Below, one piece after another: positions 3,413 to 64,000 of a stretch of DNA of 64,000 nt. Made by a program: the position numbers and the translations under genes. The notes under the pieces are model-generated. The model saw nothing but the letters and a program-made list of their open reading frames with translations. It had not been told where the DNA came from and ran no database searches. The first letter of the stretch is position 1. Every line of letters starts with the position of its first letter. Source of the stretch: Mugil cephalus (Eukaryota; Chordata; Actinopteri; Mugiliformes; Mugilidae); contig NC_061776.1 of the NCBI RefSeq assembly GCF_022458985.1, positions 7,876,379-7,940,378 of the forward strand, in the 5' to 3' direction.

Positions 3413-6400
3413 ATGGAACTTAAATCTTTCTTATTGGCTGTTTTTGTGATATATTCAAGTCAAATTCAAAGTAAGATCTTATTTTTGTAATAGTATTCAT
3501 GTGATTGTGACAATTGATGTTTTGTATCTTTTTAATTTTAAAATCTGCTTTTTGTACTATAGCGCTGAAATGTCTCCATAAAAGATGAAACTAAAAGCGT
3601 GAAACCACAGGAGGAAGAAGCAGATATTAAAGTTCTATATGTCCAGAGTACGTTGTAACTGTAACTGTTTCTTTAGAGAGAGGACGAATGTTTCAGCAGC
3701 GTTTGTCTATTTCATCAACCACTTCCTGTGGTCATGGCTTAAAATGGCGTCTCAACACATTTATAGTTTTTCATGACAAAGTCAAGGTTAGAACTTTACA
3801 ACTATTGTTACTTCGTCTCCTGATTGTTGTTTTCAAAGCTGAGATGTTGTGGCAGTACTATCGTATCACCTTAAATAATTAGTAGGTTTTAGCTTTAAAG
3901 ACCGTACTTGTTGGTGGGATCATTCTGAGGTACTTTAATATGTACTACATGGATACTAACTGCTACATATAAGTATACAGTAATGCATATTCTTACATTC
4001 ACACATTTATTTTTACATATGTTTTCTAAATATTGTAACTTGATATATTACTCTGTGTCAGTTTTGCTATAAGAGATAATATTTTTATTAGAGTGTATAA
4101 ATGTAGCATTTGAAACAGTAAATTCATGTTTTATGACAAATAATACAGCTTCAAATTTGCCTTGTGTCTCTATTAACAAAATATGAGCTTTTAAAATGAA
4201 ATTTACTCTAATAACAAATAAAAGTATGAAGGTTTAGAGAAAAACTAAAATATCAGACATGTGAGAAGGAAAAATTCAAGCCAAAAGCTCCAGGTCAGTG
4301 CTGTAACTGAACTAAATTACAGTCGTACCAATAATGCACACAGCACTCAACAAGAAAACATGTTGCTGGGAGATGGAATATGTCAGTATGTGCATATGTG
4401 ACGGTCTCTGTTTGACTTCCTCAGAATAACAGTGAAAAAAACAACTATGGTCAATGTTACTTTTATGATAAATTACAGTTACAGATAAATTAAATCATGT
4501 GATTCCTTATATATGTGCAGCATCTGTATAAATATAACAGGCTAAGGTTGAAAGGGCTGGTGAGCGTGAACCCAGTTGCAAAAGGAAGGGAAGGCAAAGG
4601 TACCAAGTCCACGATCCAGAACCTTTTAATCAGAGCGAAGCAGCAGGTCACACAGGGAAGGGCAGACAGAAACAGGCAAACCAGCAGGTAAGGAGCAGGC
4701 GACAATCCAAAAACCAAGACAACTAGACTGGTCATACACCACAGGCACAACAGAAGTTACTAGGAAGGCTGGAAAGAAAGGACACACAGTTCTAAGACAA
4801 TCTGGCTCAGAAAACATAGTGGGGTGGGCTTAAATACATGGTGACAAGACACAGGTGAAACACAGCGCTAATCAACAAAGGCGGGAAACGGAACAAAGAG
4901 GGGAAGTAAAACTGACAAACACTGGGAAGACAAATCTTTTCAAAATAAAACAGGAAGCGTACAACACAACACAACAAGAAGTGACAGATTCTGACAAAGG
5001 TAACTCCATCTTTCTTGAGTTATTCCTAAAGTGTTTTTGCGTGTGTGTCTGTGTCATTGCTATGGGGTGGGGGGTGTGGTCTGGTCTAGGTGGGTGGTAC
5101 AAAGTAATATCCACATATCCACATTTAATTGTCACAAGATGGTTTATGTTTACTTCTCCTGTCGGTGGTTTTAATGTTGTGGCTGATTGATAGATAGAGT
5201 TCCTCTGAACAACTGACTTCTCTTAAACTTGTATTTGTATTATATCATAGTGTGATTGCTGTAACTCAGAGACTCAACGCTGTAGAATTTTAATGTTAAA
5301 CAACAGCTTTTAAATGTTCTTTTCCTCAGTATGTCGTGGTCTAACAATGTCATAAAAATCAAGGCTAAACAAAGCAATAAGTCAGACATATGTGCAGTAG
5401 ACACATGTCTGCTGTGAAGCTGAACTTGGACAAACTGACGTGGTCACTGTTTGTTCACATGTTTCTTTGAGGCTCAGAAATATTTTAAAGATAAATGAGT
5501 CGTACGTCTGAGAGCTCTGTCGTAACAAATGATGGAACGAAAAGGAAGAAAATAAAAGCAACAGACACATCAGTGGTTGTTGATGATGAAGAGGTTTCAC
5601 TCAACTATTTCAGCTAAAACTCTATAAAGACATGGGATAATAATACACAGCACACTGAGAAACACAACAATCAACAGAAGAGTCCATAAGACTTTTACTG
5701 ACCTCTTTCTTTCTCTGTCACTTGTCATAAATACACACTGAGTCAAAGCAGGTAAAGATGTTTTCAGCTACAAATGAGAATCCACTCCTTAACAAATCCA
5801 GATGAGATAAATATACACAATCATTATTTAACTGATCACTGATATTGTGTTGGAAGTTAGATACAGAAATACAGTATTTATGATTGATCTAATTTCATTA
5901 TTATGTATCTACTGTTTTACAGGGTCCAGTGCTGTGACTGATGTGTTTGTGAAGAGAGGAGATGATGTACTTCTGGAAGTCATGGATGATGTTACAAAGA
6001 AATTTGATTTGTTTGTCTGGACATTTGATACAAGCAATAGTACAAATTTAGTAAGATATTCACCTGGTGGAAAACCAACAGTCTCCGAAGGTTACACTGG
6101 AAGGGTTGAGTTCTCTGTGGAAAATTACTCAGTGAAATTAAAGAATCTACAAGATGACGACAGTGGAGTTTATACAGCACAAGTGACAGGAGATAAAGAA
6201 CAAACAATAGCTAAATACATGGTCACAGTTCAAGGTAGGTTTCTGAACATTTCACACACTGACAGAGAACATCTGCTGTCATGTTTGTAAACCTCCTCAC
6301 ACCTACTTTCCTCCATCAGGTCCAGTGTCTCCAGTTGATCTGAATCCAGACTCTGTGTCCATCAGCTCAGACTCCTGTAACCTCACTGTGACCTGCAGCA

Positions 6401-8585: not shown

Positions 8586-11500
8586 ATGTCTCTCTCTGTG
8601 ATACTTGGACTGATGCTCTGCATTGAAGCACCAGGTAGGACAAGAACACTGTCTGATTAAATGTTGACAACGGGAACAGCAACGATACCAGATTCTTTAT
8701 TTGGATTAATAACAGTAACAGTGTTGCGTTTATTACTTATAGCTACAGATATAAAGGGCTATAGTAGAAGTCAAAACTCATTATGCATCACTATACACAT
8801 TTAGCAAAGCAAAGTAGTTATGATGCATCATAAAATGAACAAGTGACTAGGCAGATATTGACATATTTATAACGCACTATTCAGATTAAAATTATAATCA
8901 TTCATAACCAGTTGTCATAATGCATCATGAAGTTGGTTATGACGACTTGTGAATATGTATAGATGGTAATAATGACCATTATAATGCTTTATAGACACCT
9001 TATAAAACATTATGAGTGCATTCATAGGGCATTATAAATACAACCATCATAGAAAGTGTTACCGTAGAGGGTTTAACCAGACGGCCACGCCACATTCTGC
9101 AACAATCACCCACCTGCCTGACTCACACTCAGCTTCAACCACAAACATTCATCTCCAAGTTGCAACTTCATAAATTATCCAATAAAACTGGTTATTATAA
9201 TCGAGTATTTTAGCTCGAAAAAAAGCCATCAGAACACATGAAGACATAGACACACTTTTCAATTAGCTTACAGTTAGCTTCATAGAAAGGAATCATCTGT
9301 TTTAAGAAGTTTAAAAAGTGCTCTGATGTACATCCAGTGTTAAGAGTTAACTAGATTAGAGAAGTTGTGTGTTATGTGTTCACACGACAAAGAGGAAAGA
9401 GAAGGTTGTGGTGCAATAGTTCGCAGGAAAAACTTCACATGTTACATTTATAGTTTGATTTGATTTGATCCTAATCTCAAATGTTTCCCTGTTCTTAAAA
9501 ACAACAACAACAACCATAAAACAGCAGCAGTACATAGAATTAGTTTTCTTGTTGTACTGTAGCCTTCTTTAACTGATTGAAAGTAAACTACTACAAATCA
9601 GTTTCTTCACCTTAACCCTGTTTGGTTTCTCTTTGTCAGACATATTTTGTCTGATTGTGTCTCTGTCTGATTTTTCTGTTGTTGTATTAACTCAGATATA
9701 CAGTAAATGAGGCCACTACCTCAATATACAAATACACTCATTTTTATATTAACCAGACACATTAAGTGTATTTGTACAAAGTATCAGTATCAGATCGGTA
9801 TCGACGATATCAGCCTGAATTTTTGTCAGTATCAGATCAGAAAGGACTATATAAAATATAAAATATAAAATATAGTAAAATGTGCAGAAAACCCCAGTTA
9901 AGATGAAGAAACCTTTAAAGTTTAAAATTATGTTGTTAATATTATTGTACAGAACAACTAGGTCGTATTAAGATCAGACATGAATCCCAAATATGTTTCA
10001 TGCAGATAAACCTGCAGGATTTACAGAAGATGATATTTGTGTTGCTTCACACTTTGATTTATTGACATATAGTTTCATAGTTGAAATGATTTCATTCATC
10101 ATCAAAAGAGTTCAACCAGTAAAGAGTCTGTTAAGAATTCACTGTATTAGAGAAGTTGTGTGTTATGTGTTAACATGACAAAACCGGAAAGACACAACAA
10201 TGACTAGTCTGTAGTCTGTGGTGTGGTGGTTGATTCAAAACTATTTCCACTGTTACATTTACATTTAACAAAGCAAGAAGCTCTACCATGTCTCTCTCTG
10301 TGATACTTGGACTGATGCTCTGCATTGAAGCACCAGGTAGGACAAGAACACTGTCTGATTAAATGTTGACAACAGGAACAGCAACGATACCAGATTCTTT
10401 ATTTGGATTAATAACAGGAGCAGTAGGGGCACAAGTGGATCCAGTTTATATCTAATGATCAGAAAAACACACATGAAACCTGAAATAATGTGTTGTTCTA
10501 TTAGAGAAGAGAAGGTGACAGTAGTTTATCTTTCTTTATATGTATAATCAGAAACAAATGGACCAAGAGAGGAAAGATATGAAAAGAGGGAGGGGCTTAT
10601 AAGAATTGTCTCTGTATTGAAATAAACTGTGAACAAATTAAGACCTAAACTAATATGATGTTATAAAGGAGGGATCACAGTGAGTTTTTTTGTTTTGACC
10701 AAGTTGATTTAAACAACACTTCTGACTTCTCTCTGCAAACAATCGCTCAGCTTCCTGTTTCTGTTCTGAGAAAATTAAATACACAAACTAAAAATCTTTA
10801 GTCTTACAAGTTAACGTCTCAATGTCTGTATATAAAATAAGAGACAAAACACATTTGAAACAATAATCAAAATGTCAAAATGTCAACACACACACATTTG
10901 ATTAAACTTATTTGAAGTTGCTGGATTATTAAAGATCAGTTGATTCTAACAAAGTGAAGTCTTCTGAACACATGTACAACCATGAAGAAATATCTGAGGC
11001 TGCTTGAGGTCATTTTGAGACGTGGACAGATGGAGCAAAGAATGAAAGATGGAACAAGAGGAGAGACAGAAAAATGAGAAAGTGGAAGAAAGTCTCTGTT
11101 TTCAGTAGAGACTGTGCAGAGATGTAAAGAAATGTAAAGAGTTCTCTATCATGGGACACAATGTGACAAGAGTTATTAATATAGTGTAGAGAGAGGTTTA
11201 CCTGTTTATCTTTCTAGTAAAGGTTTGAACACACTGAATAGTTGTCAGCAGGAACAAGACAAAACGTTACGTCCCCTTGCAGCCCCTCTGCTGTCCTTCA
11301 GTGGCGGCGCAAGTGTCTTTAGGTGGTGATGAGCTGGATTTCCTGTCACATGGTTCAATATGAAGGTTGAAGAGGAAACATGTAAGATAAAGGACTGATG
11401 TTAAAAACTATGCTGGATATTGAGTTAGAGTTTTATTTATCATTATTATGTATCTACTGTTTTACAGGGTCCAGCGCTGTGACTGATGTGTTTGTGAAGA

Positions 11501-12367
11501 GAGGAGATGATGTACTTCTGGAAGTCATGGATGATGCTACAAAGAGATTTATAATTCTTGTCTGGAATTTTAATACAAGCAATGTTTTAGTAGGATATTC
11601 ACCTGGTGGAAAACCAACAGTCCCTGAAGGTTACACTGGAAGGGTTGAGTTCTTTGTTGGAAATTACTCAGTGAAATTAAAGAATCTACAAGATGACGAC
11701 AGTGGAGTTTATACAGCACAAGTGACAGGAAATAAAGACCAAACAATAGCTGAATACATGGTCACAGTTCAAGGTAGGTTTCTGAACATTTCACACACTG
11801 ACAGAGAACATCTGCTGTCATGTTTGTAAACCTCCTCACACCTACTTTCCTCCATCAGGTCCAGTGTCTCCAGTTGATCTGAATCCAGACTCTGTGTCCA
11901 TCAGCTTAGACTCCTGTAACCTCACTGTGACCTGCAGCACAGAGGACTCACACATCAGCAGCACTTTCACATGTGACACCAACACCTGCTCTCAGGAGGG
12001 AGGAGACCAATCAAAGGTCACCAACTCTGGTGCTTCCCTCCGTGTCCACCTGTTGAATGACACAATCATCTGTAACTATAGCAACCAAGTCAGCTGGACT
12101 CAGAAGAACATGACACAGATTCAGGATCTCTGTCTCCTACATGCTGGTGAGACTGACAGACAAAACATTTATCTAATAATAACATAAAGGTTCATGTATC
12201 TGAACCTGTTGTGGTTTTGCTCTGACAGTTTTCTCATGTTTGCAGGTCTCTCTGATGGTGTCTCCATCTGTCTAGTGAAGACAGTCGTGTTCTCTGTTGG
12301 TCTGATCATCATGGTGTCTGTCGTCATCAGTGTCCACCTCATGGAGAAGATCAGGAAACTAAAATAA
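8586..12367 (+). CDS. CD2/SLAM-like receptor, activating type (unit 2)
   Basis: Exons: leader 8586-8634 or the identical-protein leader 10288-10336, V 11468-11773, C2 11859-12146, transmembrane/tail 12246-12367. With either leader the sum is 765 bp (254 residues). The leader is MSLSVILGLMLCIEAPG, ending in phase 1. The V domain lacks cysteines. Its CC' region differs from other units (RFIILVWNFNTSNVLVGY), while the rest is nearly invariant. C2 has six cysteines and N-glycosylation sequons. The membrane exon has Lys in CLVKTVVF and a tiny tail. Two complete leaders, each with a similar upstream block, plus a third leaderless copy of that block at about 9330-9450, suggest tandem alternative promoters. 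All parts are intact. Confidence 0.78.
8717..9066 (-). mobile_element. One arm of the long-TIR element (GGTAACACTTT ends)
   Basis: This matches the right inverted arm of the element at 38044-39571, from CTACAGATATAAAG to AAAGTGTTACC. The other arm and centre are absent. It lies in the first intron of unit 2. Confidence 0.75.
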
Positions 12368-33056: not shown

Positions 33057-36000
33057 TATTTATATGACTCTCGCGGTCCTAAGAGGCGCTTCATCAGTTT
33101 ATCATGGTGCACTCTAAGAAAAACAGGTTCTTCACAAGTGCTCTGGAGATCCTTTCGTTTGCATGAGAACTGTGGATGTGGATATGTACGTTTTTTACTC
33201 TCCAGTGATTTCTGTTTTATTAGTAGAAAGTGTTGATTTTGTCATTTCCACCTTGTTCTAAATTCTTTTGAGAATCAGAATATCAAGGGCCTTTCGTTAA
33301 AGAGAAAAAATAGAAATGAAAAAATAGAATGATTGTTGCTGCATAATTAAGGTTTTTACATGTTCCAAACATCACCTCCACCTACAGGTTCAAATCAACA
33401 TGTCGTATACATTGCAGATATAATATGAATATACATACAAATGTCTTGTTAATGTTTTGGACATGAAATGAATAACGTGTCATTCTAAATCATCTCTGGT
33501 TGTATTTGTCACACTAAATGAGATTAAACTCTTCTTCATTGGTTTGTTATTGGTTAATGTTAAATTAGTAATCACTACCTCTCACATATTTCATTTGAGG
33601 ACTAGCAGTGTGAGCACAGGCTGATGATTGTCAGCATGGTTATCAAATATTTTATTATTGTGACCTATACTTCAGCCAGACACCAGGGGGAGCTCTACTT
33701 GCATTGACTTCACTTCAGGGGAGGGGTCTAGTTGTCCAGTAAACAGTCTATGAACCTGAGGCCAGTTTGGTTAGAAGTCAAGAAGAGGATTAATGTCCAA
33801 CTGATGTCCTCCAATCAAAGCTCCCAAATTCTCAAAACCTGACACTTACCACAGAACGTCCATACAATGGATTTTTTATGGTCTTTCTGTCACCTGCAAG
33901 TCAGAAATAAAGAAATGAATGGTAATTAGATCTATTCTTTCGTGGCAGTCTGTGGCCATTTCTGTTACTTGCAATTTTTTGCCATTTTATTCCACATTTA
34001 TTCCAAATGTCATGTATGTATCAATAATTCTAATGTCACACAGACACACACTTAAAGTCTCCATATGTGATGTTTTCTAATGTGGGTGATCACAAGTGAA
34101 GGATTCAGAGAATGAATGAGCTTAAAGCAGCACATAGACTAGAAGCTCTAAAACACAGGAGCTTGTCTCAACATTAGTTGTTTCTAAAGAACAGCTGTAA
34201 ACTATCATGAAGACTAAATACAGAATAACTTTAACTGTATGATTAGCGTGACTGGATTGTTTAATAACACAAACATTATTAATGTGTGAGGCAGCAGGTA
34301 ATAAAACAAATTCATCTTTCTACTCTGTAATTTAAGATGTAATAAACATTTGTACTTACATTTTCCTCTCTTACGAAGGAAATAACATCTAAGAAGCATA
34401 ATAATGACACCAGCTATCACAGCTATCACAGCTATCACAATGGTGATATTAGACCCTGTAGAGAAAAAAACAAAAAGAAAAAACAAACAAACAAAAAAAA
34501 CAGATTAAACAACGATGCCTGGTTTCAGTCACTCTACATAGTTTATCTTGTGTTAGTGTAACATTGTGTCTTGGAAGCTTTACCTTTGACCAACTATGTC
34601 CTAGAAATTTAGAAATAAAAGAGTTTTCCTAGTTAATCTGTGGTGATGAACAGAAACATAGATCTTTAGTCCAGAGGTGAACAGTTTAAGTCTGTACTCA
34701 CTACAAGTGGGTATTATATTACAAGAAAAGCCAAACAAAACACAACATCAGTGGATAATTTACTGATTCACTGTACTGGTTCTGAGTCTAAATGTCATTA
34801 CTGGTGCCTCAGTTTATATTTAAAATGAGTTTCATGTAAATTTACATTTTAAAAATGTAAAACTACTGACCTTCCAAAATATATTGTAAAACCAGTTATT
34901 TACTAATTTATGTATTCAGTCTGTCAGTCTCACCAGCATGTAGGGGACAGAGATCCTGAATCTGTGTCTTGTTTTCCATCCAGCTGACTTGGTTGCTATG
35001 GTTACAGATGATTGTATCATTCAACAGGTGGACACGGAGGGAAGCACCAGAGTTGGTGACCTTTGATTGGTCTCCTCCCTCCTGAGAGCAGGTTTGATTG
35101 TCACATGTGAAAGTGCTGCTGATGTGTGAGTCCTCTGTGCTGCAGGTCACAGTGAGGTTACAGGAGTCTGAGCTGATGGACACAGAGTCTGGATTCAGAT
35201 CAACTGGAGACACTGGACCTGATGGAGGAAAGTAGGTGTGAGGAGGTTTACAAACATGACAGCAGATGTTCTCTGTCAGTGTGTGAAATGTTCAGAAACC
35301 TACCTTGAACTGTGACCATGTATTCAGCTATTGTTTGTTCTTTATCTCCTGTCACTCGTGCTGTATAAACTCCACTGTCGTCATCTTGTAGATTCTTTAA
35401 TTTCACTGAGTAATTTCCCACAGAGAACTCAACCCTTCCAGTGTAATTTGTAGAGACTCTTGGTTCTCCACCAGGTGAATATCCTACTAAAACATTGCTT
35501 GTATTAAATTTCCAAACAAGAACCAGAAATTCCTTTGGAACATCATCCATGACTTCCAGAAGTACATCATCTCCTCTCTTCACAAACACATCAGTCACAG
35601 CACTGGACCCTGTAAAACAGTAGATACATAATAATGAAATTAGATCAATCATAAATACTGTATTTCTGTACCTAACTTCCAACACAATGTCAGTGATCAG
35701 TTAAATAATGATTGTGTATATTTATCTCATCTGGATTTGTTAAGGAGTGGATTCTCATTTGTAGCTGAAAACATCTTTACCTGCTTTGACTCAGTGTGTA
35801 TTTATGACAAGTGACAGAGAAAGAAAGAGGTCAGTAAAAGTCTTATGGACTCTTCTGTTGATTGTTGTGTTTCTCAGTGTGCTGTGTATTATTATCCCAT
35901 GTCTTTATAGAGTTTTAGCTGAAATAGTTGAGTGAAACCTCTTCATCACCAACAACCACTGATGTGTCTGTTGCTTTTATTTTCTTCCTTTTCGTTCCAT

Positions 36001-43714: not shown

Positions 43715-46042
43715 ATGTCTCTCTCTGTGATACTTGGACTGATGCTCTGCATTGAAGCACCAGGTAGGACAAGAACACTGTCTGATTAAATGTTGACAAC
43801 AGGAACAGATTCTTTATTTGGATTAATAACAGCAGCAGTAGGGGCACAAGTGGATCCAGTTTATATCTAATGATCAGAAAAACACACATGAAACCTGAAA
43901 TAATATGTTATTCTATCTAGAGTTAGACCAGCCACCTCTGAGTATAATCTCTCTGAACATTGGTGAATGAAAACAAAAATGTCAAAGGTTTGATTTGACT
44001 GAAGTATTTATCAAAAGATTTTTAAGCAGTAGAAAGTCTGTCAAGAGCTAACGCGATCAGAGAGCTTGACTTGTGTGGTGTTAACACAATGAAACCGGAA
44101 AAACACAATGTTGACAACGATGACAAGGCTCTAGGTTGTGATGCAGTAGTTGGTAGAAAACACTTAACACTGTTTCATTTATAGTCAACAAAGCAAGAAG
44201 CTCTACCATGTCTCTCTCTGTGATACTTGGACTGATGCTCTGCATTAAAGCACCAGGTAGGACAAGAACACTGTCTGATTAAATGTTGACAACAGGAACA
44301 GCAACGATATCAGATTCTTTATGTGGATTAGTAGATGAGCAGGAGAGACATGCTTGATTGGATAAAGAGTTTATTTACCCAGGTTAAAAGGAAAGGGAAA
44401 GGTAGGATGTGGGATGGAAAGATCGGAAGGGTCGAGAGGAAGGGAGGAAAGGATCGAGGAGATGACCTGGTGAATGGCGTGGTCAGCCAAAGTGTGGATA
44501 TGGGAACCCAGGGAGTGAAATTCAGGGTGGGGGCATATCTCTGTAGGCGCTGGATCCAAGCCGAACAGGCGAGGAGAGGTCACAGTAGATCCGCTACAGG
44601 TAATTGGTTGAGGCGTAGTCTTGTTTCTGAACCTAAGTTATTTAACTTCATTTATGCACAACCTGAAAAAAAATACTGTATGTTGTCTTATCAGAGCAGT
44701 ATAAGATTTTAGAAGAACCGAAGATAAAGGAAACATGGGAAAGTAACAGTATCTATTTATCTGTGTTTATGTTCAAATGAACAGATCAAGACTTAAAAGG
44801 GTTGAAGTACTAATACGTTGTAATGTTGTAGGAGGAGTTTTTATTTTAACTGGATTTAAATAGACACTTCTCACTTCTCTCAGCTTCCTGTTCCTGTTCT
44901 GAGAAAATGAAATGTACCTAATAGTGTTACAAGTCAACACCTCATGGTACATGAAGAAATATCTGAGGCTGCTTGAGGTCATTTTGACCCCTCTGCTGTC
45001 CTTCAGTGGCAGTGCAAGTGTCTTTAGGTGGTGATGAGCTGGATTTCCTCAACCAGTCACATCTGAAAAATATTGACATTAAAACTATGCTGTATATTGT
45101 GTTAGAATTTTATTTTTCATTATTATGTATCTACTGTTTTACAGGGTCCAGTGCTGTGACTGATGTGTTTGTGAAGAGAGGAGAGGATGTACTTCTGGAA
45201 GTCATGGATGATGTTACAAAGAAATTTGATTTCTTTATCTGGAAATTTAATATAATTAATGTTTTAGTAGGATATTTACCTGGTAGAAAACCAACAGTCT
45301 CTAAAGGTTACACTGGAAGGGTTGAGTTCTCTGTGGAAAATTACTCAGTGAAATTAAAGTATCTACAAGATGACGACAGTGGAGTTTATGAGGCACAAGT
45401 AACAGGAGCTAAAGAACAAACAATAGCTAAATACATGGTCACAGTTCAAGGTAGGTTTCTGAACATTTCACACTGACAGAGAACATCTGCTGTCATGTTT
45501 GTAAACCTCCTCACACCTACCTTCCTCTATCAGGTCCAGTGTCTCCAGTTGATCTGAATCCAGACTCTGTGTCCAACAGCTCAGACTCCTGTTCCCTCAC
45601 TGTGACCTGCAGCACAGAGGACTCACACATCAGCAGCACTTTCACATGTGACACCAAAACCTGCTCTCAGGAGGGAGGAGACCAATCAAAGGTCACCAAC
45701 TCTGGTGCTTCCCTCCGTGTCCACCTGTTGAATGGAACAATCATCTGTCACCATAGCAACCAAGTCAGCTGGACTCAGAAGAATATGACACAGATTCAGG
45801 ATCTCTGTCCCCTACATGCTGGTGAGACTGACAGACAAAACATTTATCTAATAATAACATAAAGGTTCATGTATCTGAACCTGTTGTGGTTTTGCTCTGA
45901 CAGTTTTCTCATGTTTGCAGGTCTCTCTGATGGTGTCTCCATCTGTCTGGTGAAGACAGTCGTGTTCTCTGTTGGTCTGATCATCATGGTGTCTGTCGTC
46001 ATCAGTGTCCACCTCATGGAGAAGATCAGGAAACTGAAATAA
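43715..46042 (+). CDS. CD2/SLAM-like receptor, activating type (unit 7)
   Basis: Exons: leader 43715-43763 or 44208-44256, V 45145-45450, C2 45534-45821, transmembrane/tail 45921-46042. With either leader the sum is 765 bp (254 residues). The second leader has Lys for Glu (CIKAPG). The cysteine-free V domain differs most from the others in its CC'C'' part (FFIWKFNIINVLVGYLPGRK) and near the FG loop (SGVYEAQVTGAKE). C2 retains all six cysteines, except that S replaces N next to the first strand (SCSLTVTC). The membrane exon has the Lys in CLVKTVVF and a minimal tail. Frame and splice sites are intact. The unit lies between the two copies of the segmental duplication. Confidence 0.78.
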
Positions 46043-59365: not shown

Positions 59366-61249
59366 TTGTTTGAGAAGGAGGGACAGAAATGGATGGAGAT
59401 AAAGAAAAACTATGATGAGAAGACGGAAGATGAAATGAAAAAGAATGTAAAGAAAACAGAGAAGTTAATGGCAGAGATTTATGCACCCTTTTCACATGTA
59501 GTTCCAGTACAGAGACCTCCGCCGTATAAGAAGGAGATGGAGCTCAGGGAAGTTTATCCTCAACTTCCGGTAATTAGTCAAGAGGGTAATTACCACATTA
59601 AGAATGAGGCTGAGCAGGTTATAGAAGTGGGGAAAGCAGAGACAACTATTAGGATGTATCCAAGTACAAAAAGTAAAAAGCAAACGACACATTTGGAAAC
59701 CGGAGGACGATTGAGAATTAAAAGGATGGATTTTGGAGAAGTGGAGGATCAGAGTGATGAAGAAGAAGCCATGGGAGGATATGATCCAGCAGTCAGAAGA
59801 CTACTGGCCAGAGCGGAAAGAAGAGGAGGTAAAACAGGAAGAAGAATGGAACTGAGAGATGACAGTGAAGTTGAAAATGAAAGTGAAAATGATGACAGTG
59901 ATGAAGATTTGGAAAGAGAGAGTCCTACTCTTTTGAAGTCTGCTAAGATAAAAACTGCTTATAGAGAAGAAGAAAGACGACAGATTTTAAGAGAAGTTGA
60001 AGAGAATATAGATCGATGCTGTAGATGTCTGGACAAATGCACTACACCAAAAGGAAGGAAGGCATTAGAAGACCAATTACAAGAACTGCAGATTCAGAAG
60101 AAAGAGTTGCGGAAAACAGGTTCCCAACAATTGGACAAGGAATATGAACTGCGTTCACGGAAAGAGAAGAAGCCGGGTAAGATGTGTCCAGTTGTCATAA
60201 GAGGTCAGAACTTGGAGTATAAACCTTGGCAGAGTACTGACATTTCAGATATACTTGAAAAGTTACCTACTCTTCAAGATGGAGCACACCCTTGGATCTC
60301 AAAGTTGGAAGAGATCATGGTGGGGACGCAAGCTGCAGTAGGAGACATTAAGAGATTGCTGGCAAATATACTTGGGGTCCCAGCCATGGGGGAGATTTTG
60401 CAAAGAGCTGGATTAAACTGTTATGTGGAAACTGCTGTAAATGATTCAGAGCTGTTAGCAAATAGAGGTCGAGTATGGAGAGCATTGAAAGATACATTTC
60501 CAACAAATATACACCCTGATAACATTCTCATTGAGCCACTGGGACAGGAAGAAAATCCGAGAGCCTATGTGTTAAGAGCCTATCAGGTGTGGAGAAATGT
60601 CACAGGAAACGATCCAGAGGAGAGCCAAATGGAGCAATCAATTCTGGGAGCCAAGATACAGAAGGGGCTACCTCTACCAGTGCGGAGCAAATTGGCAGAA
60701 GTGGTTGGTCTTGGAAATATGGCAAAGAGTGTATATACAGACCATGTAGCACATCAAGTGGACCTGTATAGAAAGAAGGAGTATGATCAGAAGGAACAAG
60801 ATCAAGAAACTCTTCGGAAACTCAATCAAATACAATTGGTGGATAACAAGAAGAAGGAGAAGAAGCAGGCTTTAGTTTTACAGAGCCAGCCTGAACAAAA
60901 TCAATCATCTCCACAATTACAGCCAAACCAGGTTCAGTTTCAATCACCTCAACCGTCCCCAGTGGTCCCTGTTGTTTATAACACACAACCAACTCTTGGC
61001 CAGCTACAAATATGGAGAGGAAGAGGTCGAGGAACCTTTGGAAGAGGAAGAGGAAACTCTAATTTCCAACAGTTCTCAGAAGTGTGTTATAACTGTGGAC
61101 AGTTTGGACACTTTGCTCGTGAATGTGGTAGACCAGGAGGAAATTTTCGAGGAAACTTCAGGGGAAATGCGAGAGGAGGATTCAGAGGTCAGCAATTGAT
61201 CATCCGGGGACCGGCGAACCCTTATAGGGGTCCAGAGCAAGGATTTTAG
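59366..61249 (+). CDS. ERV Gag polyprotein
   Basis: The open frame runs from the stop at 59312 to UAG at 61247. It has no ATG before 59393, while a well-placed ATG at 59352 is one base out of frame, so a small lesion at the start is likely. Counting from 59366, residues 51-54 are PPPY, a late-budding motif. About 150-190 is very acidic. About 195-250 is a basic/acidic helical region with CCRCLDKC. From about 270 lies a capsid region ([19 protein letters not shown], then [12 protein letters not shown]). About 575-590 is one zinc knuckle of C-x2-C-x4-H-x4-C type ([15 protein letters not shown]), set between RG-rich tails that bind RNA. The size and single knuckle fit class I, gamma/epsilon-like ERVs. 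It forms the virion core. Confidence 0.85.
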
Positions 61250-61708
61250 GGGTGCCCGGAAAATTCGAAAGGGGGGTGTCAGCTGGTAGTGTCAGGGCCA
61301 GAACAAGATCCAACAATAATGGTGAAAGTAAATAATAGACCATTAGAAGTGATGGTAGATAGTGGAGCGGCTTTCACCTGTATTCGACCTGAAGATGCTA
61401 TATACCTCCCTATGTCTGGTCAATTGATACGGACGATCGGGTTTGAGGGAGTGAAACAGCTGGTACCTCTTACAAAACCAATTGAGCTCTGTTACAAAAA
61501 TCAAAAGACTACAATACCTATATTGGTTTCAGAACACACACCGATTGCACTGTTAGGAAGAGATGCTTTATGCAGATTGAAGTGTGTTATAAAGTGTACA
61601 CCCGACGGCTGCTTGGTAGAGATGCCATCTGATACTGCTTACCAACTATTGATGACAACAGATGTTGAGGCCTCTTCAGTATGCTGGATTGGAGATCTTA
61701 GTGCCTAG
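61250..61708 (+). CDS. ERV aspartic protease, in frame after Gag UAG
   Basis: The frame continues from Gag without a stop after the UAG at 61247-61249, as in gammaretroviruses where the codon is read through. The active site is DSGAAFTCI at about 61360, and the flap-distal LLGRDALCRL lies at about 61550, both standard for retropepsins. It would cleave Gag and Pol. It ends at a second in-frame UAG, 61706-61708. A downstream structure that promotes read-through is likely but not demonstrated here. Confidence 0.85.
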   Translation, partial: GCPENSKGGCQLVVSGPEQDPTIMVKVNNRPLEVMVDSGAAFTCIRPEDAIYLPMSGQLIRTIGFEGVKQLVPLTKPIELCYKNQKTTIPILVSEHTPIALLGRDALCRLKCVIKCTPDGCLVEMPSDTAYQLLMTTDVEASSVCWIGDLSA

Positions 61709-63694
61709 TTTTTGGAACCTGTTAAATTGTGGGAGAAGTTTATTGTAGCAAATATGCCTGATGCAAGACTTCCAGACTATTCGCTTCATTGTACGCTCAA
61801 GTATTTTAAGGACGCTGCCCAGTCAAATTGTGAGGAGTGGATAAGTCATCAACCAAAAGAAGTTGAACTCACCTCGTCTTGTATAATTTGGGGACCACAA
61901 GGAGCAGCAATGATAGTTGATATGAATGAATATGTGAGCGAAGAATATAAAATCAAAGAGAGTGTACCACATGTGACCTTGAGGGTGTCTGAAGAATATG
62001 AACAGAAACATATAGGAGAAATGATGGCGGAAGCAGTAAAAGCTGTTTTTGCACCAGTAGAGGGGAATTCTGCCATCTGGAAGAGTGAGGATCAGCGGTT
62101 TCTCAAGATTATGATATCTGCTCAAGGACATGGGCGACCACAAGTTGTCCAAATGACACATGAAGCGATATGTGGGGTTGAAATGGACGCAGATGTTTTG
62201 AGGAGAGAAATGTTACAGCAAGTACCTGAATGTTTGTGGTCTCGATACAGTACTGATATTGGTCTTGTTAAATCAGCTCAACCAGTGAAAGTGGAACTCA
62301 GACCTGGAGCCAGACCTCCTTGGAAGAATCAGTATCCACTGAAAGAAGAGGCAGTTCAAGGGATTGAACCACAGCTTGAAGGACTTCTGAGAGCAGATGT
62401 GTTGAAGATAACTCAAAATCCTATAAGCAATACGCCATTGTTGCCTTTACAGAAACCAGACGATTCCTATCGCATGGTTCATGATTTGAGATTTGTGAAT
62501 GAAGTAGTAGCCGATTTTCCAGCAGAAGTGCCAGATCCGTATACTTTGTTGGCTCAAATTCCCCCAAATGCTACACATTTTACAGTATTGGATTTATGTG
62601 GTGCATTTTCCAGTGTTCCACTGAGCGTAGAAAGTCAGGGTTTGTTTGGGTTCACATACAAGGGACAGTTTTATGAGTACCAAAGGTTGCCACAGGGATT
62701 TAAACATAGTCCTCATATTTTCAATAAAGTATTGAAAGATGATTTGGCAGGACTAGATCAAAAATTAAAAAGTACAGTGGTTCAATATGTAGATGACATT
62801 ATTATTTGTTCACCAGATAAGGAAACATGTCATGAAGACTCAATTAAGCTGTTGCAGATTTTGGCAGAAAATGGTCACAAGGTTTCACAGAAGAAGTTGC
62901 AATATTGTCAGGAGAAGGTAGTTTATTTGGGTCAAACAATAACACAGGGCCACAAAAGTATTTCTGACAGTCATTTAGAGGCTATTCGAAAGGCTCCAAA
63001 GCCCCGAACAGTCAGGGAGATGATGACATTCCTCGGTATCACTGGTTACTCTTCAGCATGGATTGAAGATAATGTAAGTTTGACAGGACCTTTAAGGGCT
63101 ATGATTAAAGATACTGGGAGTACTCAACTTCATTGTAATCTTCTCTGGACACAGGATGGTTTATTAGCCTTTGAAACAATTAAACAGAGGTTACAAGAAG
63201 CTCCAGCGTTAGCCCTTCCAGACTATTCTAAGAATTTTCTGTTGTATGTATCTACCTCAGCTGGAGGAAAATATGCATGTGCAGTTCTTTGTCAGCCAAC
63301 AGGTACAGGGACCAGTCCTCAACCTATTTCATATTATTCTACTGCTTACTCAGATGTTGGACTGGGACTACCATGGTGTTATAGAGCAATGGTGGGAGTC
63401 TATTTAATGTATGACAAAGCATCTTTGGTCACGAGGGGATATCCAGTGACAATTCTTACTCATCATAGTCTCAGAAATCTTTTGAACTATGGAAAGTATA
63501 CTTTGACCATGCCTAGACTTAGAGACTATAATAGGCTTTTAGAACAAGAGGATGTCACATTAGTCAGATGTGTTACAATAAATCCAGCTGAGAATTTGCC
63601 AACTCCAGAAGATGGTGAACCACATCATCAGTGTTCAAGAAGCAGAGAAATATTCGAGACTGACGTCAGATTTGAAAGCTCTTCCATTGCATGA
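61709..63694 (+). CDS. ERV Pol: 2H phosphoesterase-like domain plus reverse transcriptase
   Basis: The frame continues after the second UAG and has no ATG of its own at the start. Counting from the TTG at 61712, residues about 7-135 contain LHCTLKYF (His26, Thr28) and PHVTLRV (His87, Thr89), with a strand-rich stretch between them (VELTSSCIIWGPQGAAMIVD). This is the twin H-x-T signature of 2H phosphoesterases, which cut 2',5'- or cyclic phosphodiesters. Residues about 195-440 are reverse transcriptase: VLDLCGAF with Asp294, LPQGFKHSP, and YVDD at 359-362. The connection region follows, to about 640. The frame then departs at about 63630. RT is certain. The 2H assignment is by motif and order only, and the spacing of 61 residues is shorter than I expect for most members. 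Confidence 0.75.
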   Translation, partial: FLEPVKLWEKFIVANMPDARLPDYSLHCTLKYFKDAAQSNCEEWISHQPKEVELTSSCIIWGPQGAAMIVDMNEYVSEEYKIKESVPHVTLRVSEEYEQKHIGEMMAEAVKAVFAPVEGNSAIWKSEDQRFLKIMISAQGHGRPQVVQMTHEAICGVEMDADVLRREMLQQVPECLWSRYSTDIGLVKSAQPVKVELRPGARPPWKNQYPLKEEAVQGIEPQLEGLLRADVLKITQNPISNTPLLPLQKPDDSYRMVHDLRFVNEVVADFPAEVPDPYTLLAQIPPNATHFTVLDLCGAFSSVPLSVESQGLFGFTYKGQFYEYQRLPQGFKHSPHIFNKVLKDDLAGLDQKLKSTVVQYVDDIIICSPDKETCHEDSIKLLQILAENGHKVSQKKLQYCQEKVVYLGQTITQGHKSISDSHLEAIRKAPKPRTVREMMTFLGITGYSSAWIEDNVSLTGPLRAMIKDTGSTQLHCNLLWTQDGLLAFETIKQRLQEAPALALPDYSKNFLLYVSTSAGGKYACAVLCQPTGTGTSPQPISYYSTAYSDVGLGLPWCYRAMVGVYLMYDKASLVTRGYPVTILTHHSLRNLLNYGKYTLTMPRLRDYNRLLEQEDVTLVRCVTINPAENLPTPEDGEPHHQCSRSREIFETDVRFESSSIA

Positions 63695-64000
63695 GGCAGA
63701 TTTAGAGTATTGGACTGATGGGTCCTGTTATCGTGTGGGAGATAATTTGAGTGCTGGTTATGCGGTGGTAAAAGCCCAGGGAACAGGTTTTTGTTGTTGA
63801 GAAAGCGGAAGCGGTACCGCAGCCTGCATCAGCGCAGCTTGCTGAATTGGTGGGGTTAACTGAAGCATGTCTTTTAGCGGAAGGCAAGCGTGTGACGGTC
63901 TACACAGATTCTGCATATGCTCATAATGTGTGTCATTTGTTTGGATCGGTAGGGAAAAATCGAGGGTTTAAGAAAACAGATGGTTCCCCAATACAGCATC
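63625..64000 (+). pseudogene. ERV RNase H, twice frameshifted, runs off window
   Basis: After the RT frame is lost at about 63625-63635, the next frame carries the first catalytic Asp (YWTDGSCYR, about 63705). It ends in TGA at 63798-63800. A third frame from about 63787 continues with AELVGLTEA (Glu) and TDSAYA (Asp) and then KNRGFKKTDGSP up to the window end. The three acidic motifs are those of retroviral RNase H, which removes RNA from RNA:DNA hybrids. Two frame changes mean this copy cannot make a full Pol. Confidence 0.85.

Follow-up and report, generated by a model that had tools for sequence, protein, structure and literature searches.

An endogenous retrovirus (ERV) lies towards the right-hand end of the 64,000-nucleotide stretch of Mugil cephalus DNA analysed here (contig NC_061776.1, positions 7,876,379 to 7,940,378; hereafter the window). 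In its Pol frame, between the protease and the reverse transcriptase (RT), we find a segment which probably represents a CNPase-type 2H phosphodiesterase domain, carried within the Gag-Pol of an epsilon-like fish retrovirus and predicted to open 2',3'-cyclic phosphates. Two H-x-T motifs, HCTL and HVTL, lie 61 residues apart in the frame running into RT, and their position directly ahead of RT, as described in an earlier sequence-only reading of the window, was confirmed (Table 1). When all six frames were scanned over the whole window, in stop-free stretches of at least 120 amino acids, this was the single instance of an H-x-[ST]-[LIVMFYA] pair 55-95 residues apart.

Motifs, fold and descent of the domain

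Protein searches gave 28 relatives (P0004-P0031), whose source names, with the exception of P0026, are all fish: Mugil, Scophthalmus, Prochilodus, Dicentrarchus, Metynnis, Syngnathus, Scortum, Myripristis, Oreochromis, Takifugu, Pundamilia, Haplochromis and Pelmatolapia. P0026, a fish ERV Pol protein cluster, is also labelled as ferret (Mustela putorius) by one source, which is likely due to contamination or mislabelling. Scans of viral contigs and of genome contigs yielded no further relative. Motif residues were counted in the 25 proteins that span both sites, namely the window copy and 24 relatives; P0013, P0014 and P0024 were left out as they lack site 1, because the protein begins later, and P0028 as it has neither site. 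The first histidine is retained in 24 of the 25 proteins and the second in all of them, threonine or serine stands at +2 in 24/25 at either site, and the first histidine is preceded at five residues by proline (24/25) and followed at five residues by an aromatic residue (25/25). The exceptions are P0029, in which tyrosine replaces the first histidine, and P0011, in which methionine and alanine replace the two threonines. The 22 invariant columns of a three-lineage alignment include the motif residues, the first histidine being nearly invariant, and in all three full Pol proteins scanned the 2H segment lies between protease and RT, followed by RNase H and integrase. A chance origin of the motif pair can thus be ruled out, mainly because the pair is conserved among relatives across lineages, besides being the sole such pair in the window.

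Folds were predicted for relatives of two lineages rather than for the interrupted copy of the window. In the AlphaFold2 model of P0010 each motif opens a strand (residues 63-67 and 123-129), and a fold search with the models of both lineages matched CNPase, fungal RNA kinase, cyclic phosphodiesterase (CPDase), LigT and Acb1. The closest solved structure was CNPase, clearly ahead of the other 2H families, while the RNase L antagonists of AKAP7 type (ns2, NS4b and rotavirus VP3) reached about half of its fold score. A LigT-type or AKAP7-type identity was set aside by this ranking, which is not proof. Structure prediction thus supports a 2H fold of CNPase type for the domain. Among the Pfam matches of 18 2H pieces, 2_5_RNA_ligase2 was met in nine (best E 1.6e-4) and LigT_PEase in seven (best 0.0015), followed by Acetyltransf_7 in two (best 0.054) and further families in one piece each; NCBIfam gave three single, weak and unrelated matches for 18 members. 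A dUTPase identity was ruled out, as that family is not among the Pfam results for the window, the 2H pieces, those from divergent lineages or the Pol proteins.

Three groups can be separated among the carriers of the domain. Identity between the window group and P0030/P0031 is 22% for 2H and 43% for RT; with P0025/P0026 the window group shares 27% identity in 2H and 55% in RT. In the 13 of 28 relatives compared, 2H identities track RT identities (r 0.93, with none of 2000 permutations as high), which fits a single old capture followed by descent with Pol, and these statistics support the view that the domain was inherited together with RT. Relatives show the order protease, RT, RNase H and integrase with an integrase end of gamma/epsilon type; in full Pol proteins the Pfam family MLVIN_C was found above cut-off in P0015 and P0026 and weakly in P0031. 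From this we infer an epsilon-like (class I) retrovirus.

Several results weigh against the assignment to a CNPase-type domain inherited with Pol. The window segment itself scored 0.013 with LigT_PEase and 0.019 with 2_5_RNA_ligase2, both below the curated cut-offs. The 2H phosphoesterase proposed earlier is supported as a domain in Pol just ahead of RT, with fold matches in relatives and with profile matches that in the window itself stay under those cut-offs. No 2H family matched the modelled P0010 piece at E 1 in Pfam, and the four pieces taken from divergent lineages split evenly, two matching 2_5_RNA_ligase2 (0.045 and 0.0066) and two no 2H family. PF05881, which we take to be the Pfam CNPase family, was absent from the Pfam results for the window, the 2H pieces, the divergent pieces and the full Pol proteins. 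A sequence search of PDB gave no significant match to a solved 2H protein, only weak or chance ones; the best 2H match was 1fsi, an entry named cyclic phosphodiesterase, at E 0.16. Furthermore, none of the 25 proteins has an arginine at the offset matching Arg 307 of CNPase, and confidence in the second model is moderate (pLDDT 66.8). The trees also differ in one place: P0026 groups with P0030/P0031 in the 2H tree (90/81), whereas the RT tree puts it with P0025 (83/51). Both trees, built from the same 13 relatives, are poorly resolved, with six of ten inner branches open in each.

Copies in the host genome and rate of change

A search of the host genome (634.8 Mb in 24 contigs) with the 164-amino-acid piece gave at least 38 matches, among which 19 are full-length at 94% identity or more and 17 of these 19 have no internal stop. 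Both motifs are kept at all 20 loci fetched (the window and 19 others); their absence from related ERV copies, which the sequence-only reading had held against its own proposal, was thus not seen. Over 1319-1621 aligned bases the window shares 97.5-98.7% identity with the 19 other loci, and judged by such sequences the ERV family is young. The in-frame UAG at 61706-61708 is present at one of the 20 loci, which rules it out as a regular readthrough site; the window copy is a decayed member whose 2H domain is interrupted by a stop.

A further locus, L021 (contig 5, 13224000-13227500), holds a decayed 2H segment of the P0026 lineage, 25% identical to the query and 47% to P0026. About 1.5 kb interrupts it between residues 136 and 180 of P0026, and this gap, which has a 258-amino-acid open frame resembling by eye the reverse transcriptase of a long interspersed element (LINE), is probably a later insertion.

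Among the 19 copies the ratio of nonsynonymous to synonymous variation (pN/pS) was 0.75 for 2H; the RT core had 0.24, the linker 0.28 and a 90-base protease piece 0.03, the variant counts excluding L020 and skipping codons with a gap or stop. The value for 2H exceeded that for the RT core in 98.6% of 2000 bootstraps, its own range being wide (0.36-1.83), and Fisher tests on the variants gave p 0.03 and 0.019, ignoring the shared ancestry of the copies. Against L020 the contrast was weaker (2H 0.46, RT 0.35, linker 1.44, from small counts). The mean identity among eight full Pol proteins was 58% for 2H versus 74-78% for protease, RT, RNase H and integrase; a 70% coverage filter removed the 2H pieces of P0030 and P0031 from this comparison. 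By these comparisons the domain is the fastest-changing of the five Pol parts, with its motifs constant, a pattern which fits either host conflict or little constraint beyond the active site.

Possible roles of the domain

2H enzymes employ both histidines and need no metal; the reaction of CNPase is the opening of 2',3'-cyclic phosphates. By likeness to CNPase, the two H-x-T motifs would form one metal-independent acid-base site, which would open 2',3'-cyclic phosphates on RNA ends or on nucleotides. Being built into Gag-Pol, the enzyme would travel in the virion, and protease cleavage may free the domain or leave it attached. Soon after entry it would work on RNA ends or small nucleotides, either within the reverse-transcription complex or in the cytosol. 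RNA-end processing, the second option of the sequence-only reading, fits better than antagonism of RNase L. A wider scenario is tentative and on the whole somewhat doubtful: a CNPase-type enzyme would have been captured once, by an ancestor of the epsilon-like retroviruses, and kept in Pol under pressure to change at all places but its active site, to serve in the virion as hydrolase of a host antiviral RNA-end or nucleotide signal which replaces OAS/RNase L in fish. Teleosts are not known to have OAS, which would also speak against the RNase L reading; the literature looked at gave no answer either way.

The role for which the sequence-only reading had looked to viral 2H enzymes was degradation of 2',5'-oligoadenylate (2-5A), which would keep RNase L off in the manner of coronavirus ns2 and rotavirus VP3. 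The fast amino-acid change would suit such an immune antagonist, and viral 2H proteins of this kind, which belong to the same superfamily, cleave 2-5A without metal according to the cited part of PMC8406329. Antagonism of RNase L nevertheless found no support, and because the subtype of the fold is CNPase-type, with the known antagonists at about half its score, we consider it quite unlikely. Phage Acb1, a 2H-fold enzyme, destroys bacterial signals, and by analogy hydrolysis of an immune signal by the Pol domain is possible. Breakdown by the packaged domain of a cyclic (oligo)nucleotide such as cGAMP, made in response to sensed retroviral cDNA, is rather doubtful, as the Acb1 match is far weaker than that to CNPase, the fast change is also in keeping with relaxed constraint, and 2',3'-cGAMP was not cut by the AKAP7-type enzymes tested in the cited part of PMC8406329.

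The fast change of the domain, together with the loss of motif residues in P0011 and P0029, would also suit a captured 2H fold that has no catalytic task and serves Pol folding, RNA binding or extension of RT. Such a role is less likely because the motifs are retained, both among the invariant columns and at every locus fetched, and we hold it to be unlikely. Similarly, the domain might imitate host CNP or act as a decoy for it, CNP being a protein that binds retroviral Gag and keeps particles from assembling. This would agree with the CNPase-type fold and with the inhibition of HIV-1 particle formation by CNP via MA (PMC7471995, in the part cited); since the active-site motifs, which a decoy would not need, are kept, this explanation is very improbable. 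Hydrolysis of 2',3'-cyclic phosphates by a CNPase-type domain is the reading we prefer.

Layout of the element and comparison with known systems

Table 1. Parts of the retroviral element and landmarks of its 2H domain, in window coordinates
Feature	Positions	Strand	Basis
Gag-like open frame	59366..61249	+	ORF list; 627 aa listed from TTG; ends with UAG 61247-61249
Retroviral protease region	61250..61705	+	Pfam RVP E 3.4e-10, residues 18-114 = 61301-61591
2H (CNPase-type, predicted) domain	61670..62155	+	span transferred from relative P0010, residues 23-184 of modelled piece
In-frame UAG within 2H domain	61706..61708	+	sequence; stop in 1/20 loci, the window copy only
First H-x-T motif (HCTL)	61787..61798	+	sequence
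Conserved GPQGAA stretch between motifs	61892..61909	+	G, P and second G invariant in alignments A1 and A2
Second H-x-T motif (HVTL)	61970..61981	+	sequence
Reverse transcriptase core	62450..62941	+	Pfam RVT_1 E 1.7e-29
RNase H-like part	63146..63454	+	Pfam RT_RNaseH_2 E 1.1e-11

The span of the 2H domain was mapped from the AlphaFold2 model of P0010 and its VIA-align range on the CNPase entry 1woj, with the position of the first histidine as the anchor between P0010 and the window. Because the mapped start is at about 61670, the domain begins ahead of both the frame from 61712, used in the sequence-only reading, and the in-frame UAG, and the final codons of the protease region overlap it. The Gag-like frame contains a zinc knuckle (zf-CCHC, E 1.7e-6) and shares one frame with the protease, the two being parted by a lone UAG followed by G. 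Readthrough of this UAG, of the kind seen in class I retroviruses, is possible because Gag is in the same frame as protease and RT; an Rfam scan of the Gag-Pol junction (61000-62000) gave no match. Alignment to a relative falls apart at about 63633-63791, and any integrase or envelope would fall past the end of the window.

Elsewhere in the window, four open frames with matches to the immunoglobulin V-set family were found, on both strands, at 5847-6287 (+, E 1.9e-8), 11398-11826 (+, E 9.5e-6), 35251-35685 (-, E 2.8e-6) and 45006-45473 (+, E 5.3e-4, below cut-off), and the ERV seems to adjoin a cluster of Ig-type receptor exons. A BED zinc finger frame at 2134-2592 (-, E 7.8e-8) is perhaps transposon-derived.

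A retroviral 2H/CNPase domain as such is already reported in fish retroviruses, and the earlier remark that no standard retrovirus is known to carry one was mistaken. Section 3.4.5 of PMC9503650 names walleye dermal sarcoma virus as a carrier of a 2H domain, on record since 2002 by its citation, and section 7 of PMC4977317 states that epsilon-like ERVs of ray-finned fish occasionally encode CNPase, citing Basta 2009. The main text of PMC10835031 contains none of the words 'retrovir', 'fish' and 'walleye', and neither PMC8672886 (zebrafish ERVs) nor PMC6001957 (vertebrate ERVs) contains 'phosphodiesterase' or 'phosphoesterase'. In our searches of an open-licence library we found no published functional test of a retroviral 2H domain, nor in print the CNPase-type fold assignment in two lineages or the rate contrast. 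Retroviral accessory enzymes are few, and this one is open across the domain in many host copies and occurs in several lineages. If its fast change reflects host conflict, its substrate would indicate an antiviral pathway of fishes that involves nucleotides or RNA ends.

Among known systems, walleye dermal sarcoma virus and its relatives (Epsilonretrovirus) are likewise fish retroviruses with a 2H domain, as named in that section of PMC9503650. For both models, proteins of walleye dermal sarcoma virus and walleye epidermal hyperplasia virus 1 are among the top three viral matches by fold, at 15-20% identity; both library entries are labelled 'Envelope polyprotein'. The CNPase open reading frame reported for epsilon-like ERVs of teleosts (Basta et al. 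2009), likened here via its description in PMC4977317, is probably the same thing. The catalytic domain of vertebrate CNPase and goldfish RICH shares about 15% identity with the viral domain, which unlike it lies inside Pol after the protease. The two histidines are 79 residues apart in CNPase (H230/H309, from PDB titles) versus 58-63 in the viral relatives, which bears out the earlier remark that the spacing in the window is short for the family. The AKAP7-type 2',5'-phosphoesterases (ns2, NS4b and rotavirus VP3) are also viral and of the same superfamily, and their origin, unlike that of the CNPase-type Pol domain, is traced, in the published portions cited, to AKAP7-like genes.
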